A DNA stretch of 64,000 bases from Sediminimonas sp. (GCF_024637375.1 NZ_JAGXFK010000058.1:1-64000), one strand, 5' to 3'. Shown: positions 19,420 to 36,632, numbered from the stretch's first letter. The notes: generated by a model not told the origin, from the sequence alone. Numbers and translations: made by a program.

Positions 19420-19774
19420 CCTGCGGCTTCCCTCTGATGCCGGATTTCGCCTTGCCCCAACATAAGTGGGACGGTTCCAAACGTGAATGCCCCCACGGGC
19501 GAAACTCGCTGGTGGGGGGCGATCCCGGGCTGCGCCCATGGGACCGGAAGCATGACCGGCTTCCGGAGATTTGGTTCCCGTTAAGCGCAGGCGGCGCGGG
19601 AGTCAAGCCATGCGGGCGCGTTTCGCGGCATGGGCCGGCGCGTGCGGCTGGCGCGTGCGGCGCGCTTTGCCTTGTGCCACCGCACGCACCGGACTAGAAA
19701 GTCGTGCGGATGTGTTGATCTGCGCACATACGCCCCCCGCATCCGTCCGAAACCGACAGCGCGCGAGGCCTGCC

Positions 19775-28947: not shown

Positions 28948-29478
28948 ATGACGATGTGGGTGTTCGGATACGGATCGCTGTTGTGGAACCCGGGTTTCGA
29001 GGTCGCGGATCGCGGCCTTGCGGTGTTGCCGGGCTACCACCGCAGTTTCTGCATGCGCTCGGTCCACCACCGCGGCACCGCCGATGCGCCGGGGCTGGTG
29101 CTGGCGCTGGACCGGGCCGAGGGCGCCGCCTGCCACGGGCAGGCGCTGGCGGTGGCACCGGGGCGCGAGGACGACACGCTGGCCTACCTGCGTGAGCGCG
29201 AGCTGGTCTCGTCGGCCTATTTCGAAGCGCGCCTGGCTGTCGATCTGCGCGACGGGCGCCGGGTCGAGGCGGTGACCTACCTGGTCGACCCCGATCATAC
29301 GCAGTATTGCGGCGCCTTGCCGCTGGACGAGCAGGCCGGGATCATCGCCCGCGCGAGCGGCGGCATGGGTCCGAATGCCGAGTATCTGTTCAACACCGCC
29401 GCGCATCTGCGCACGCTTGGAATCTCTGACCCCGACCTTGATTGGCTGGACGCCCGGGTGCGCGCCCTGACGGCATAA
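28948..29478 (+). CDS. Gamma-glutamylcyclotransferase (ChaC-like)
   Basis: MTMWVFGYGSLLWNPGFEVADRGLAVLPGYHRSFCMRSVHHRGT... YGSLLW signature. Confidence 0.92.
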   Translation: MTMWVFGYGSLLWNPGFEVADRGLAVLPGYHRSFCMRSVHHRGTADAPGLVLALDRAEGAACHGQALAVAPGREDDTLAYLRERELVSSAYFEARLAVDLRDGRRVEAVTYLVDPDHTQYCGALPLDEQAGIIARASGGMGPNAEYLFNTAAHLRTLGISDPDLDWLDARVRALTA

Positions 29479-29546: not shown

Positions 29547-30782
29547 ATGGATCAGCCGGACCGCGAGGTCGAGCCGCAGTTTTCCCAACCCGTGCGCCAG
29601 ATCATCCTGATGCTCATGGTGCTGGGTCTGACCGGGGTGGTGGTGGTGCTGGCGCTGCCGCGGGTGCTGCCGGTGTTCGAGGCAAACCCCTACCTCAACG
29701 GCTTCATCCTGTTCGTTTTCGTGATCGGCGTGCTGGCGTGTTTCTGGCAGGTGCTGCAACTCATCAGTTCGGTGCGCTGGATCGAGGCATTCGCCAGCGA
29801 GCGAGAGGTCGCGCAGGCCGGGCGCGTGCCGCAATTGCTGGCGCCCCTGGCGGCGTTGCTGCGATCGCGCGGGCGACGGATGCAGATATCGGCATCCTCG
29901 ACACGTTCGATCCTCGATTCGGTGGCCACGCGGATCGACGAGGCGCGCGAGATCACCCGCTATATCGTCAGCCTGCTGATCTTTCTCGGGCTCCTGGGCA
30001 CGTTCTACGGGCTGGCCACCACCGTGCCGGCGCTGGTGGACACGATTCGCGGGCTTGCCCCGCAGGAGGGCGAGGCGGGGGTCGAGGTGTTCGGGCGCCT
30101 GATGAGCGGCCTGGATCAACAACTTTCGGGCATGGGCGTGGCGTTCGGTTCGTCGCTGTTGGGGTTGGCCGGATCGCTGGTCGTGGGGCTGCTGGAGCTG
30201 TTCGCCGGCCACGGGCAGAACCGGTTCTACCGCGAACTTGAGGAATGGCTGTCGTCGATCACGCGGCTGGGCTTTTCCAGTGGCGAGGCCGAGGGCGGCG
30301 ATCAGGAGGTCGTGGCGCAGGTTCTCGACACCATGGTCGAGCAGATGGACGGACTGCGCCAGCTTTTTTCGCAGTCCGAGGCGGGTCGCGTCGAAACCGA
30401 CGCCAAGCTGGGCAGCCTGGCCGACTCGGTCGAGCGGCTGACCGACCGAATGGCCGAGACGCGGTCGATGGACGAGGCGCTGGCGCGCGTGTCTGAGGGG
30501 CAGGACCGGCTGATCGGGACGTTGACCGACCTGGCCGAGGCCGAGCGCGGCCGCGAAGAGGGGCTCGACGCCGAAAGCCGGATGCGGCTGCGCTCGATCG
30601 ACGTGCAGATGCTGCGCCTGCTGGAAGAGATCAGCGCCGGCCGCCAGGAAACCATGACCGAGCTGCGCACCGATCTTTCGGCGCTGGCCCGCGCCCTGCA
30701 ACAGCAGGGCGGGCGCGGCACCGGCCGTGACCGGGACAGGGGCGCATCGCGGGGCGGTGGCGGCACCGGGCAGGAGGGCTGA
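29547..30782 (+). CDS. MotA/TolQ/ExbB-like proton channel protein
   Basis: Hydrophobic segments plus ITRYIVSLLIFLGLLGTFYGLATTVPALVDTIRG...LSGMGVAFGSSLLGLAGSLVVGLLELFAGHGQNRFYREL. Confidence 0.8.
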   Translation: MDQPDREVEPQFSQPVRQIILMLMVLGLTGVVVVLALPRVLPVFEANPYLNGFILFVFVIGVLACFWQVLQLISSVRWIEAFASEREVAQAGRVPQLLAPLAALLRSRGRRMQISASSTRSILDSVATRIDEAREITRYIVSLLIFLGLLGTFYGLATTVPALVDTIRGLAPQEGEAGVEVFGRLMSGLDQQLSGMGVAFGSSLLGLAGSLVVGLLELFAGHGQNRFYRELEEWLSSITRLGFSSGEAEGGDQEVVAQVLDTMVEQMDGLRQLFSQSEAGRVETDAKLGSLADSVERLTDRMAETRSMDEALARVSEGQDRLIGTLTDLAEAERGREEGLDAESRMRLRSIDVQMLRLLEEISAGRQETMTELRTDLSALARALQQQGGRGTGRDRDRGASRGGGGTGQEG

Positions 30783-30785
30783 GCC

Positions 30786-33389
30786 ATGGCCCTGTCGCGG
30801 CGCACCGGGCAGCGCTTCCAGTCTTCCATCTGGCCGGGGTTCGTGGACGCGATGACGGGGCTGTTGCTGGTCCTGATGTTCGTGTTGACCATCTTCATGG
30901 TGGTGCAATCGGTGCTGCGCGAAACCATTGCCGGGCAGGATACCAGGCTTGATGCGCTTTCCGCCGAGGTGGCGGCGCTGTCGCAGGCGCTGGGCTTGGC
31001 GCAGCGGCGCAACACCGAACTGACAGCCCGGGTGGGCGAACTGGACGCGACCCTGCGCGAGGAACGTGCCCGCGCCGACGAGCAGTCGGCGCTGATCGCG
31101 TCGCTGCGCGACGAGCGCGACGCGCAGGCCGCCGCGCTTGAGGGCGCGCGCGGCCGTATCGCCAGTTTCGAGGAACAGGTCGCCGCCCTGATCGCCACGC
31201 GCGATGCGCAAGCCGCGGCGTTGGACGCGGCGCAGAGCCGCATCGCCGGGTTCCGCCGCGAGGTCGCGGCGCTGGGTGACGAACGCGATGCCGCCCGCGA
31301 AGAGGCCGAAGACCTGCGCACGGCACGCGATGCTGCGCAGGCCGAGGTGACGCGACTGGAGGGCGAGCGCGCCGAACTGATCAGCGAGCGCGAGGCGCTC
31401 AACCTGGCGCTGGCGCAGGCGCGCGACGAGGTCGACGCGAAAACCGAGGCGGCGCGCCTTGCCGCGGCGCGGCGCGAGGCCTTGCAGGCGCTGATCGCCG
31501 ATCTGCGCCGTCGCAACGTTGCCGCGGGCGCCGAAGCCGACGATCTGCGCGCCCGGCTGGGTACCGTAGAGGACAAGCTGAGCGCGCAGGAGGCGGCGCG
31601 CGACCGGCTTTCCGCGCGGGTCGGCGAACTGGAGGACGACCTTGACGAAAGCGCGGCGGCGCGCGCCCGCCTGGGCGAAGATCTTGCCGCGACCAGGGAG
31701 CGGCTGAGCGAGGAAGAGGCCGCGCGCTTGGTAGAGGCCGCCGCGGCCGAGCGCCTGCGCGAGCGGCTCAGGAACGCCGACGCGGAACTCACCGCGATGA
31801 CCATGGTGCTGGAGGAGCAGCGCCGCAAGGCCGAGGAAACCCTGACCTTGCTGGCCGCGGCCGAAAGCTCGCAGGAAGACCTGAGCACCAAGCTGGCCGC
31901 GGCGCTGCTGGCGCGCGAGAAGACGCAGCAGCAGCTTGGCGCCCTGCAGGAAGACCTGCAAAGCGCCCGCGACGCCCGCGAGGCGGCGCTTGCGCAGGCC
32001 GAGGAAGACCGCGCCGCGGCGCAAACCCGCCTGTCGTCGCTGGAGGCGGCGCTGGCCCAGGCCCTGGCACGGGCCGAAGAGGGAACGGCGCGCATCGAGG
32101 ATCTGCGCACCCGTCTGAGCGAGGCCGAGGCGGAGCTGGCGCAAACCCGCGAGGCCGCAGGCGACCTGGAGCAGCAACTGGCGCAGGCGCGGCAAACGCA
32201 GACGGCGCTGCGCGATGAGCTGGCCCAGGCACGCGGCGAGGCCGAAAGCCTGCGCGCGCGGATGCAGACCGAAACCGGGTCGCTGGAGAAGCGCCTTGCC
32301 GAGGCGCTGGCCGCCAAGCTCAAGCTGGAGGGCGACCTGGACGACGCACAAACCGCGCTGGCCACGGCGCTGGAGGCGCGCCGACAGGCCGATCAGGCGG
32401 CGCAGCAGGCGCGCGCGGCGCAAGGCGCCGCCGAGGATCGCGCCGCAGCGGCCCAAGACCGTGCCGACGCGGCCGAAGAGCGCGCCACCGCTGCCGAGGG
32501 TCGCGCCGAAGCCGCCGAGCAGACACTGACCCGCGAGACGCAGCGCGCCCAGGACGCGCTGGCCGAGGCGCTGGCGGCCCGTCTGGCGGCCGAGCAGCAG
32601 GCGCAGGCGCAACTGAGCGAGGCCGAGCGTCGCGCGGCGTTGCTGGCCGAGGCACGGCGCAAGCTGACCCAGGAGGAAGCCGCCAGCGCCAAGGCGCAGC
32701 GCGAGCAGGCGCTGCTCAACCAGCAACTGCGCGCGCTGCGAGAGCAACTCGGGTCGTTGCAGGCGCTGCTGGACGACTACAAGGAACGCGAGGCCGCCGC
32801 GCAGGTGCAGTTGCAATCGCTGGGGTCGGACCTTAACGCCGCGCTGGCCCGCGCCGCGGCAGAGGAACGCAAGCGCCGCGAGCTGGAAGAAGCCGAGCGC
32901 AAGCGCCTGGAAGAAGAAAAGGCCAACCTGGAGAAATACCGCAGCGAATTCTTCGGTCGGCTGCGCGAGATCCTGGGCAACCAGGAAGGCGTGCGCATCG
33001 AGGGCGACCGCTTCGTGTTCTCGTCGGAGGTGCTGTTCGCGCCGGGCAAGGCGGAACTGTCGGATGACGGCAAGGCCGAGATCGCCAAGGTCGCGGGTAT
33101 CGTCAAGCGCATCGCCGACGAAATCCCCGAGGGCATCGACTGGATCATCCGGGTGGACGGGCACACCGACGATGTGCCGCTGGCCGATTCCGCCGATTTC
33201 GAGAACAACTGGGAACTCAGCCAGGCGCGGGCGCTGTCGGTGGTGCGCTACATGGTCGATGAACTGGACATGCAGCCCAAGCGGTTGAGCGCCAACGGCT
33301 TCGGGGAATTCCAGCCCGTGAACACCGCCGATACCGAAGCGGCGCGTGCCCAGAACCGGCGCATCGAGTTGAAGCTGACCGAGCGATAG
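30786..33389 (+). CDS. MotB-like protein: single N-terminal TM, very long coiled coil, C-terminal OmpA peptidoglycan-binding domain
   Basis: FVDAMTGLLLVLMFVLTIFMVVQ TM; about 600 aa A/E/R/Q/L-rich heptad-like region; C-term VDGHTDDVPLADSADFENNWELSQARALSVVRYMVDE...GFGEFQPV..RAQNRRIELKL. Confidence 0.85.
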   Translation: MALSRRTGQRFQSSIWPGFVDAMTGLLLVLMFVLTIFMVVQSVLRETIAGQDTRLDALSAEVAALSQALGLAQRRNTELTARVGELDATLREERARADEQSALIASLRDERDAQAAALEGARGRIASFEEQVAALIATRDAQAAALDAAQSRIAGFRREVAALGDERDAAREEAEDLRTARDAAQAEVTRLEGERAELISEREALNLALAQARDEVDAKTEAARLAAARREALQALIADLRRRNVAAGAEADDLRARLGTVEDKLSAQEAARDRLSARVGELEDDLDESAAARARLGEDLAATRERLSEEEAARLVEAAAAERLRERLRNADAELTAMTMVLEEQRRKAEETLTLLAAAESSQEDLSTKLAAALLAREKTQQQLGALQEDLQSARDAREAALAQAEEDRAAAQTRLSSLEAALAQALARAEEGTARIEDLRTRLSEAEAELAQTREAAGDLEQQLAQARQTQTALRDELAQARGEAESLRARMQTETGSLEKRLAEALAAKLKLEGDLDDAQTALATALEARRQADQAAQQARAAQGAAEDRAAAAQDRADAAEERATAAEGRAEAAEQTLTRETQRAQDALAEALAARLAAEQQAQAQLSEAERRAALLAEARRKLTQEEAASAKAQREQALLNQQLRALREQLGSLQALLDDYKEREAAAQVQLQSLGSDLNAALARAAAEERKRRELEEAERKRLEEEKANLEKYRSEFFGRLREILGNQEGVRIEGDRFVFSSEVLFAPGKAELSDDGKAEIAKVAGIVKRIADEIPEGIDWIIRVDGHTDDVPLADSADFENNWELSQARALSVVRYMVDELDMQPKRLSANGFGEFQPVNTADTEAARAQNRRIELKLTER

Positions 33390-33470: not shown

Positions 33471-36400
33471 TCAGCCGATCTCGGCCAGCCGGGCCAGCGC
33501 GGCGTTCAGGCGCGCCTCTTCCTCTTCGCGGGCGGCGAGGTTTTCGCGCGTTTCCTCGACCACCTCGGCAGGGGCGCTTTCGGCGAACTTGGGGTTGTTC
33601 AGCCGCCCGCGCAGACCGGCCAGTTCCTTTTCCAGCTTGGCGTGCGCCTTTTGCAGCCGCGCCTTTTCGGCGTCCACGTCGATGACGCCGGCCAGCGGCA
33701 GGCCGAAGGTGCCGCCCTCGACCGGCACGGTCACGGTGCCCTTGGGAAAATCGGCGGCCTCGGTCAGGGTGTCGATGCGCGCCAGCTTCGTGATCAGCGC
33801 CTCGTTGCGCGCCCACGCGGCGTGCCCGGCTGTGTCGAGATCGGCCACCAGCATCGGTATCTGCAGCCCCGCCGGCACATGCATCTGCGCGCGGGCCGAG
33901 CGGATACCCTCGATCAGCGAGATCACCCAGTTCATTTCACGGTCGGCGTCGGCATCGACCAGCTCGGCGCCGTATTCGGGCCACGGGGCCAGCGCCAGCA
34001 GCCCGTCGCGCCGGGTGGTGACCTGCCACAGCTCTTCGGTGACGAAGGGCATGATCGGGTGCAGCAGGATCAGGCACTGGTCCAGCACCCATGCCATCGT
34101 GGCGCGCGTCTCGGCCTGGTCTTCGGCGCTGCCATCCATCAGCAGGGGCTTGGAAAATTCCACGTACCAGTCGCAGACCTTGCCCCAGACAAACGCGTAC
34201 AGTGAATTGGCCGCGTCGTTGAACCGGTAGGCGGTGAGCGCTGCGTCCACTTCCTCGCGGATGCGCCCGACCTCGCCGATGATCCAGCGGTTGACGGTGC
34301 GGCTGGCCGCGGGCGGCGTGGGCGCGGGGGCGTGGCCCTCGTAGACGCCATTCATCTCGGCAAAGCGGGTGGCGTTCCATATCTTGGTGCCGAAGTTGCG
34401 GTAGCCGGCGATGCGGTCTTTCGACAGTTTCAGGTCGCGCCCCATGGCCGCCATCGCGGTGAGGGTAAAGCGCACCGCGTCGGCGCCGTAGTCGTCGATC
34501 AGCTCGATCGGGTCCAGCACGTTGCCCAGGGATTTGGACATCTTCTTGCCGGTCTCGTCGCGGACAAGGGCATGGACGTAAACGGTATGGAACGGCTTTT
34601 GCCCGACCACGGCGTATTGCATCATCATCATCCGGGCGACCCAGAAGAAGATGATGTCGAACCCGGTGATCAGCACATCGGTGGGGAAATACTTGCGCAG
34701 TGCCTCGGTGTCCTCGGGCCAGCCCAGCGTACCGATGGGCCAGAGGCCGGAGGAGAACCAGGTGTCGAGGACGTCGGGGTCGCGGGTCAAACCAATTGTA
34801 GTGCGCTCGGATTCCGGATCACCGACCCAACCAGACCCTCTAGACGGCGGATTGGCTTGTGGGCGGCCTGCACTATCAGGCTCAGAGAGTATGAAACCAT
34901 CATCAAAAATAACGTCGATAGTCGCGTGAGGGGTTGTCTTTTTGTGGAAAGCCTTTGCTTTTTCGGCCACTTCGGCTTCACTCGAAGCACAAAACTCGTT
35001 TCCATACAGGTCATACCAAACCGGCACCTGGTGGCCCCACCAGAGCTGGCGCGAGATGCACCATGGCTCGATGTTCTCAAGCCAGTGCAGGTAAACCTTG
35101 CGGTCCTGGTCGGGCATGATCGTGACGTCGCCGCCGGTCACCGCATCAATCGCGGGCTGCACGATCTGCGCGGTGTCCACGAACCACTGGTCGGTCAGCA
35201 TCGGCTCGATCACCACCTTCGAGCGGTCGCCGAAGGGCTGCATGATGGGCTTGGCTTCGACCAGCGGCACCATGGTCACGTCATCCCCGGCAAAGCCGTC
35301 ATCCCCGACTTGATCGGGGATATCCTGATCCCGGGATCCTCGGGTCGCGCCCGAGGATGACGTGGCGGCGGCGGGGCGAGATCCTCCGGTCGAGCCGGAG
35401 GATGACGGGGGATGGTCGGCCGAGGATGACGGCATCATCACGGCCAGCCCCTCGGCGGTGATCTCCTCGACGACCTTGCGGCGCGCCTCGAATCGGTCCA
35501 GCCCGCGCAGGTGATCGGGCACCAGGTTGAGCGTATCCACCTCCTGCGCGGTGAATTCGGCGCCCTCGGCGATCTGTTGCGCGCGCTTGGCACAGTCGGC
35601 ATAAGGCGCGCCGTCGTCGCGCATGTGCGCCTTCGTGTCCATCAGACGGTACATCGGGATGTTTGCGCGCTCGGCCACGGCATAGTCGTTGGCATCATGC
35701 GCGCCGGTGATCTTGACCGCGCCCGAGCCGAAATTCGGGTCGGGGTAGTCATCGGTGATGATCGGGATCAGGCGGCGGTGTTCCTTCGGGCCGACCGGAA
35801 TTTCGCACAGCTTGCCGACGATGGGCGCATAGCGCGCGTCCGACGGGTGGACCGCCACCGCGCCGTCGCCCAGCATCGTCTCGGGGCGCGTGGTGGCGAT
35901 GGAGATGTAATCGCGTTCTTCGCGGAAGATCACGTTGCCGTCTTCATCTTTCTCCAAATACTCATAGGTCTCGCCGCCCGCCAAGGGGTACTTGAAATGC
36001 CACATGTGCCCCGGCACCTCGACATTCTCGACCTCGAGATCGGAAATGGCGGTCTCAAAGTGCGGATCCCAGTTGACCAGCCGCTTGCCGCGATAGATCA
36101 GCCCCTTGTTGTACATGTCCACGAAGACGCGGATCACCGCGTCGTGGAAATTGCCCTCTTCGCCCGCCGGCGCGCCGGGTGCGCCGGACATGGTGAAGGC
36201 GTTGCGCGACCAGTCGCACGAGGCCCCCAGCCGCCGGAGCTGGTTGATGATGGCGCCGCCCGATTCCTGTTTCCATTCCCAGACCTTCGCGAGGAACTCT
36301 TGCCGCGTGAAATCGGTGCGCCGCTTGCCTTCCTTGGCGAGGTCGCGTTCCACCACCATCTGCGTGGCGATGCCGGCGTGGTCCTGCCCCGGCTGCCACA

Positions 36401-36632
36401 GGGTGTCGAAGCCGCGCATCCGGTGCCAGCGGGTCAGGATGTCCTGAAGCGTGTTGTTGAAGGCGTGCCCCATGTGCAGGCTGCCGGTCACGTTGGGCGG
36501 CGGGATCATGATGCAGAAGGTCTCGGCGCCATCGCGCGCGCCGGCGCCGGCCTTGAACGCGCCGGCCTCTTCCCACGCCTTGTAAAGCCGCGCCTCGGCC
36601 TCGGCCGCGTCGAATGTCTTTTCCATCGCCAT
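33471..36632 (-). CDS. valS: Valine--tRNA ligase (with two internal insertions)
   Basis: [31 protein letters not shown]..., [12 protein letters not shown], ValRS C-terminal coiled coil. Confidence 0.96.
35275..35434. repeat. Palindromic (REP-like) element cluster embedded in frame within valS
   Basis: GTCATCC...GGATGAC ended imperfect palindromes: atccccgacttgatcggggat, ggatcctcgggtcgcgcccgaggatgac, gatcctccggtcgagccggaggatgac, ccgaggatgac. Confidence 0.85.

Follow-up and report, generated by a model that had tools for sequence, protein, structure and literature searches.

A putative envelope motor of Alphaproteobacteria with a periplasmic coiled coil of variable length and conserved helical phase

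Introduction

Flagellar stators, Tol, Ton and Zorya belong to one superfamily of ion-driven motors in which A and B subunits assemble in a 5:2 ratio. In these motors the Asp of the B subunit ZorB faces a Ser/Thr ring of ZorA, whose tail is required for defence (PMC11890865), and a survey of MotAB relatives states that non-flagellar B subunits lack a long linker and an OmpA-type domain (PMC12505986). Here we present a gene pair that is an exception to the latter statement. It lies in a 64,000-nucleotide (nt) stretch of DNA from Sediminimonas sp. (GCF_024637375.1, NZ_JAGXFK010000058.1:1-64000; hereafter the window) and consists of a channel-type gene, A, and a MotB-type gene, B, whose product joins one transmembrane (TM) helix to an OmpA domain through a very long coiled coil. 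We consider it probable that the pair forms a 5:2 motor that is driven by ions and held to peptidoglycan via a continuous B shaft, and that its role is a housekeeping one.

The locus was first proposed, from the DNA alone, to be an undescribed proton-driven machine. This stands insofar as no description of the A-B pair was found in the open-access literature, most subscription journals lying outside the search; B itself, however, already has a name. It is a clear member of the PRK09039 family (NCBIfam NF006542, E=2.4e-238, 793 bits against a curated cut-off of 388; NF006543, E=1.8e-94) and, at 867 amino acids, is longer than the 627 positions of the NF006542 model. The family is named only, its title being silent on an A partner, on motor architecture and on length variation, and no functional paper on PRK09039 was found in the open-access literature. 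Papers on Rgs/Tol-Pal unipolar growth and on Rhodobacter CenKR and DalA yielded no mention of the pair. What is already known is thus the family name; what we did not find described in the open-access literature is that B is paired with A, that the pair is spread class-wide, how it relates to ZorA, and that the coil is free in length but locked in phase.

Architecture of the gene pair

The features of the pair in the window are:

29547..30782 (+), A subunit, MotA/TolQ/ExbB-type channel protein of 411 amino acids, four hydrophobic helices and a cytoplasmic tail
29958..30230 (+), TM3-TM4 core of A, residues 138-228, motif FLGLLGTF.GL, from the alignment
30282..30779 (+), C-terminal helical tail of A, residues 246-411, from the alignment and the predicted model
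30786..33389 (+), B subunit, MotB-type, 867 amino acids, NCBIfam NF006542 (PRK09039 peptidoglycan-binding protein)
30840..30908 (+), sole TM helix of B, residues 19-41, with Asp21 (codon 30846-30848)
30912..32930 (+), putatively periplasmic heptad coiled coil of B, residues 43-715 (about 670), period 3.51, no Pro, His, Cys or Trp
32427..32519 (+), 21-base-pair (bp) tandem array, 4.4 copies, the unit being one heptad
33033..33359 (+), MotB-type OmpA peptidoglycan-binding domain of B, residues 750-858, with GHTD, NWELS.AR and NRRIE motifs

The reading frame of A runs from an ATG at 29547 to a stop codon at 30780-30782; B starts with an ATG at 30786 on the same strand, after a gap of 3 nt, and stops at 33389. 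Coordinates, gap and the length of B bear out the original prediction, which had seen a MotA/TolQ/ExbB-like protein followed 3 nt later by one of 867 amino acids.

The two-helix channel core of the 5:2 superfamily, a helix with the GLLGT motif followed by a polar helix, is present in A by alignment as well as by fold match. In an AlphaFold2 model built with 43 relatives (mean predicted local distance difference test, pLDDT, 78), the hydrophobic stretches fall in helices 16-46, 48-83, 116-168 and 178-244, and a Foldseek search of the Protein Data Bank (PDB) with this predicted fold returned chains of TolQ, ExbB and ZorA from 5:2 motors of solved structure at probability 1.00. T152 and S203 are invariant in an alignment of 43 proteins; by analogy with known motors, these two residues are candidates for a Ser/Thr ring opposite the B Asp. 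Among named profiles the best match of A is ZorA1 (7.2e-12), and among named proteins A is closest to ZorA, not to MotA, TolQ or ExbB, with which it had been compared at first. The core profile of A did not recognise E. coli MotA (E=3.1), and when PDB sequences were searched, A gave nothing beyond coiled-coil or chance matches.

B begins with an Arg-rich N-terminus followed by the TM stretch FVDAMTGLLLVLMFVLTIFMVVQ, the same that had been quoted for its Asp. Across 44 B proteins from the whole class, D21 is invariant together with W16, P17 and G18, and B therefore has the one N-terminal, Asp-bearing TM helix expected of a B subunit of the 5:2 superfamily. The C-terminal OmpA domain, also foreseen, is recognised by Pfam (E=1e-16, residues 750-858); its closest solved structures are MotB proteins (6ysf, E=2.8e-17), its peptidoglycan-binding motifs are invariant in the same 44 proteins and the region matches the ZorB profile as well (about 1e-18). 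An ion-motor-like architecture, as originally suggested, is thus backed by the predicted fold of A, the invariant Asp and the OmpA domain of B, and by the features tested the pair appears to belong to the 5:2 motor superfamily. The Arg-rich N-terminus, the single TM helix and the C-terminal OmpA domain are likewise consistent with an N-in topology that would place the coil in the periplasm, in agreement with the original prediction.

Relative to the nearest relative, the ratio of non-synonymous to synonymous substitution rates (dN/dS) is 0.08-0.09 in the TM and OmpA parts of B and likewise in the A channel; the B coil and the tail of A reach about 0.23-0.24. These ratios indicate purifying selection.

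A feature that had gone unmentioned is the cytoplasmic helical tail of A, some 165 residues long. Some other Alphaproteobacteria that retain the B coil have a tail of no more than about 55-80 residues, and in one lineage the whole of A measures only 267 amino acids. At five loci (L105, L107, L108, L109 and L147) the tail is strongly shortened or nearly gone, with the B coil and OmpA domain kept.

Length and register of the coiled coil

The coil of B was originally put at about 600 residues. It is a real coil, and its extent is rather about 670 residues. Over residues 43-715, the periodicity of L, I, V, M and F peaks at 3.51 residues with a power of 45.7, a value reached by none of 500 shuffled controls (99th percentile 8.7), and B is proline-free between residues 18 and 752. 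AlphaFold2 places helices over residues 19-730, the central region included, with short breaks near 192-212, 289-300, 567-574 and 676-681. The same picture emerges from B proteins of 75 Rhodobacteraceae and 25 other origins, whose coils have median periods of 3.50-3.51 and zero proline.

Length is far less constrained than period. In Rhodobacteraceae the coil measures 327-910 residues (median 456) and in 36 other, mostly alphaproteobacterial, loci 144-436, an overall spread of about sixfold (144-910); at 0.1485 nm per residue this corresponds to rods of 49-135 nm and 21-65 nm, respectively. Because an initial sampling of short B proteins had been skewed towards the best matches to a 350-position model, 20 longer B proteins were added to it.

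The changes in length keep the helical phase. Counting distinct insertions and deletions (indels) of at most 60 residues in pairwise alignments, 523 of 672 events in B (78%) are multiples of 7 and 114 more are 3 or 4 modulo 7; for A, the multiples of 7 come to 6 of 507 (1%). Steps of 0 and 3-4 residues leave the hydrophobic seam of such a coil intact. When nearest relatives were grouped into disjoint pairs, 12 of the 13 close pairs of unequal length differed by 0, 3 or 4 modulo 7. The distance from the TM Asp to the GHTD motif, which needs no alignment, was taken from 135 proteins (60 non-Rhodobacteraceae, 75 Rhodobacteraceae) and equals 3 modulo 7 in 45 of the 60 proteins outside Rhodobacteraceae. 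For the distinct lengths in this group, the best period in the range 2-12 is 3.5 (coherence 0.80; p about 7e-8, corrected for seven residues, kinship ignored). Given the heptad-multiple indels and the clustering of the distance between TM Asp and wall motif modulo 7, B behaves as one continuous coiled-coil shaft that is free in length and fixed in phase, and not as a ruler.

Several observations weigh against a motor with such a shaft. For A, the best Foldseek E-value is 2.5e-3 with template modelling scores near 0.5 to the targets, and Pfam MotA_ExbB scores 0.0068, under its cut-off. The AlphaFold2 model of B has a mean pLDDT of 70 and a predicted template modelling score (pTM) of 0.32; its short breaks may be hinges and, because of that pLDDT, both the breaks and any fold-back in the model are unsure. 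The all-pairs indel events are non-independent and their count is inflated, which is why two tests that need no alignment, on sister pairs and on distances modulo 7, were made as well; the modulo-7 signal, in turn, is weaker in Rhodobacteraceae alone (28 of 75, corrected p 0.01). Finally, slippage of 21-bp repeats may, besides selection for an unbroken seam, partly cause the heptad-sized indels. The array of the window is likely a substrate for such changes, and 23 of 39 tandem arrays in the B genes of relatives have a 21-bp unit. The excess of 3-4 residue steps is explained more easily by selection than by slippage.

These same repeats are what a static or sensory tether would draw upon: A and B would link the inner membrane to the wall via a long spacer with little or no ion energy, and drift and repeat slippage would set the coil length. 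Differences of up to 200-300 residues between related species, on top of the sixfold spread across the class, fit this idea, as do the 21-bp repeats that favour them. Nevertheless, an invariant membrane Asp in B and invariant polar residues in A are unexpected for a mere anchor, and the helical phase is kept both in sister pairs and in the modulo-7 distances; we therefore regard a tether as unlikely.

Distribution, gene neighbourhood and relation to Zorya

The pair is no peculiarity of its locus: it is found class-wide in Alphaproteobacteria, and its extreme coil length is an elaboration of Rhodobacteraceae. Of 27 Rhodobacteraceae genomes sampled, 26 have A; it also occurs in many further families of Alphaproteobacteria, and matches outside the class are few. 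In 226 of 385 genomes of Alphaproteobacteria, B scores above the NCBIfam cut-off. Wherever Rhodobacteraceae loci had enough flank, B follows A (69/69); outside this family the gap between them is usually 0-20 nt.

Within the window the neighbours are ggct, DUF2125 and valS. Of these, the first is a conserved upstream neighbour and no component of the machine:

28948..29478 (+), ggct (ChaC-like)

Upstream of the pair in Rhodobacteraceae loci with enough flank, ggct occurs in 76 of 76 and DUF2125 in 74 of 76. The placement of the pair between ggct and valS therefore has a conserved half and a local one, valS lying downstream in 1 of 69 such loci; it was rejected as a conserved partner. Elsewhere in the class the pair is often near EF-P, inositol monophosphatase and thiE, with a gap-like gene further off. 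Given the conserved neighbours in Rhodobacteraceae and these other genes elsewhere, the pair is part of the core chromosome in a housekeeping neighbourhood and not of a defence island.

This context bears on a second alternative, namely anti-phage defence of the Zorya type, complete or reduced, in which a ZorAB-like motor would sense perturbation of the envelope by phage and trigger an unlinked effector. The likeness is considerable: the ZorA1 and ZorB profile matches given above, a ZorA-like cytoplasmic tail on A and, as the closest relatives of A outside its own family, the ZorA3/DUF802 proteins of Zorya type III. In the tree, however, A groups apart from all sampled ZorA (support 93/90) and the ZorA types cluster together; no ZorC, D, E, F or G gene was found among the neighbours examined in the window and at other loci; the fixed position and near-universal presence in Rhodobacteraceae contrast with the patchy occurrence of defence systems; and the tail of A is short in some lineages, though that of ZorA is required for defence (PMC11890865). 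A defence role of this kind thus seems improbable. Common ancestry with Zorya is plausible, in either direction, because ZorA3/DUF802 proteins are nearest to A and the ZorA types group apart from it. The root of the tree is unsure, TolQ/ExbB lying on a very long branch, and their placement inside the A family was judged a long-branch artefact (branch length 6.8).

The closest relatives just named are DUF802 proteins at L185-L189 that PADLOC labels ZorA3. The PADLOC models for ZorA and ZorB match the housekeeping pair too, so that automatic Zorya calls in Alphaproteobacteria need checking.

Directly upstream of A, 7 of 20 loci outside Rhodobacteraceae carry a gene for a secreted Pro-rich OmpA-domain protein, a possible third component. 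Examples, beside four other loci, are:

L138:9361-10107 (-), secreted Pro-rich OmpA-domain gene
L133:6484-7764 (+), secreted Pro-rich OmpA-domain gene
L132:8769-10067 (-), secreted Pro-rich OmpA-domain gene

A Tol/Ton-like energiser, in which the AB motor would drive this protein as a third periplasmic partner organised by the long B coil, draws on those 7 of 20 diverse loci but is very improbable, as the gene does not stand beside the pair in Rhodobacteraceae and most sampled loci (homologs elsewhere in those genomes were not sought).

Some further observations concern other genes. At L150:7224-11544 (genome G707), a distant A-like gene of 444 amino acids is followed by an adhesin-like open reading frame of 969 amino acids, with no MotB-like gene. 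The valS gene of the window (33471-36632, -; 1053 amino acids) holds an in-frame insertion at 35283-35410 built of palindromic elements (CCTCGGGCGCGACCCGAGG and ATCCCCGATCAAGTCGGGGAT), with direct copies 45 nt apart, and a second odd stretch near 34860-34990. The sole Rfam match in the window is RF01793, ffh small RNA, at 19482-19533 (-; 61 bits).

A proposed mechanism

In the wall-anchored motor that we favour, five A subunits would form a ring in the inner membrane and two B helices its axle, the coupling ion being carried by Asp21. A likely ion path comprises Asp21 of B with T152 and S203 of A, since all three are invariant and the ZorB Asp faces a Ser/Thr ring in 5:2 motors. From the membrane, the two B chains would run on through the periplasm as an unbroken, parallel, two-stranded coiled coil, at whose end a dimer of MotB-type OmpA domains would grip peptidoglycan; with OmpA holding the wall, the A ring would turn around the wall-held B.

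A rod of 24 nm would fit upright in the periplasm and one of 68-135 nm would not. That the coil is too long to stand upright had been argued from the start, and the lengths support it. The corollary, that it must fold back or run parallel to the wall, is reasonable, although changes in length that are locked in phase speak rather for a single uninterrupted rod. In Rhodobacteraceae, where 68-135 nm is too long for the periplasm, the rod would have to run lengthwise within the envelope or be kinked at its weak points, and the wall anchor would come to sit to one side of the motor.

Its likeliest function is a housekeeping one and not mobile defence: the motor would use ion energy to do mechanical work on the cell wall or outer membrane, or to sense either of them. 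The near loss of the A tail in some lineages in which the B coil stays suggests that the output of the motor is periplasmic, unlike in Zorya, where the tail is needed. Far more tentatively, Alphaproteobacteria in general may possess one more housekeeping motor of the envelope, next to Tol and Ton: an A5B2 assembly whose torsionally continuous shaft would run along the Rhodobacteraceae envelope and exert torque or pull on the wall at distances from tens of nm to over 100 nm. A relative of this assembly may have been the source of Zorya.

If the favoured motor is real, a large bacterial class has a dedicated ion-driven envelope machine from the superfamily of flagellar stators, Tol, Ton and Zorya. 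Zorya would then gain a housekeeping relative, and searches with ZorA and ZorB profiles can catch non-defence genes. A coil of free length and fixed phase is also a natural experiment on whether a shaft transmits torque or only tethers, and the extreme coils of Rhodobacteraceae make this question testable through heptad insertion and deletion.

Comparison with known systems

With ZorAB of types I-III the pair shares the channel core of A, the helical cytoplasmic tail of A, a B subunit with a TM Asp and a MotB-type OmpA domain. The long part is placed differently: ZorB is a short protein whose profiles span about 215-293 positions, and the extended element is the tail of ZorA, whereas here it is the putatively periplasmic part of B. 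Unlike Zorya, the pair has no adjacent effector genes, is chromosomally fixed and branches apart from ZorA.

TolQR-TolA and ExbBD-TonB resemble the pair in that the predicted fold of A matches TolQ and ExbB. The source genome, however, encodes a separate TolQ elsewhere (L081). TolA carries a periplasm-spanning helical element comparable to the B coil; to our knowledge, TolR and ExbD have neither an OmpA domain nor a long coil. The difference is that here the spanning element and the axle would be united in one protein, B, together with an OmpA domain.

MotAB and PomAB share with the pair a B subunit with a TM Asp, an OmpA domain of the same subtype and an A subunit with four hydrophobic helices. 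No flagellar genes occur among the immediate neighbours of the pair, where the original prediction, too, had seen neither flagellar nor Zorya partners. The pair is no flagellar stator and no Tol/Ton system and, by gene context and phylogeny, no Zorya; it differs from MotAB and PomAB in that a continuous coil takes the place of plug and linker.

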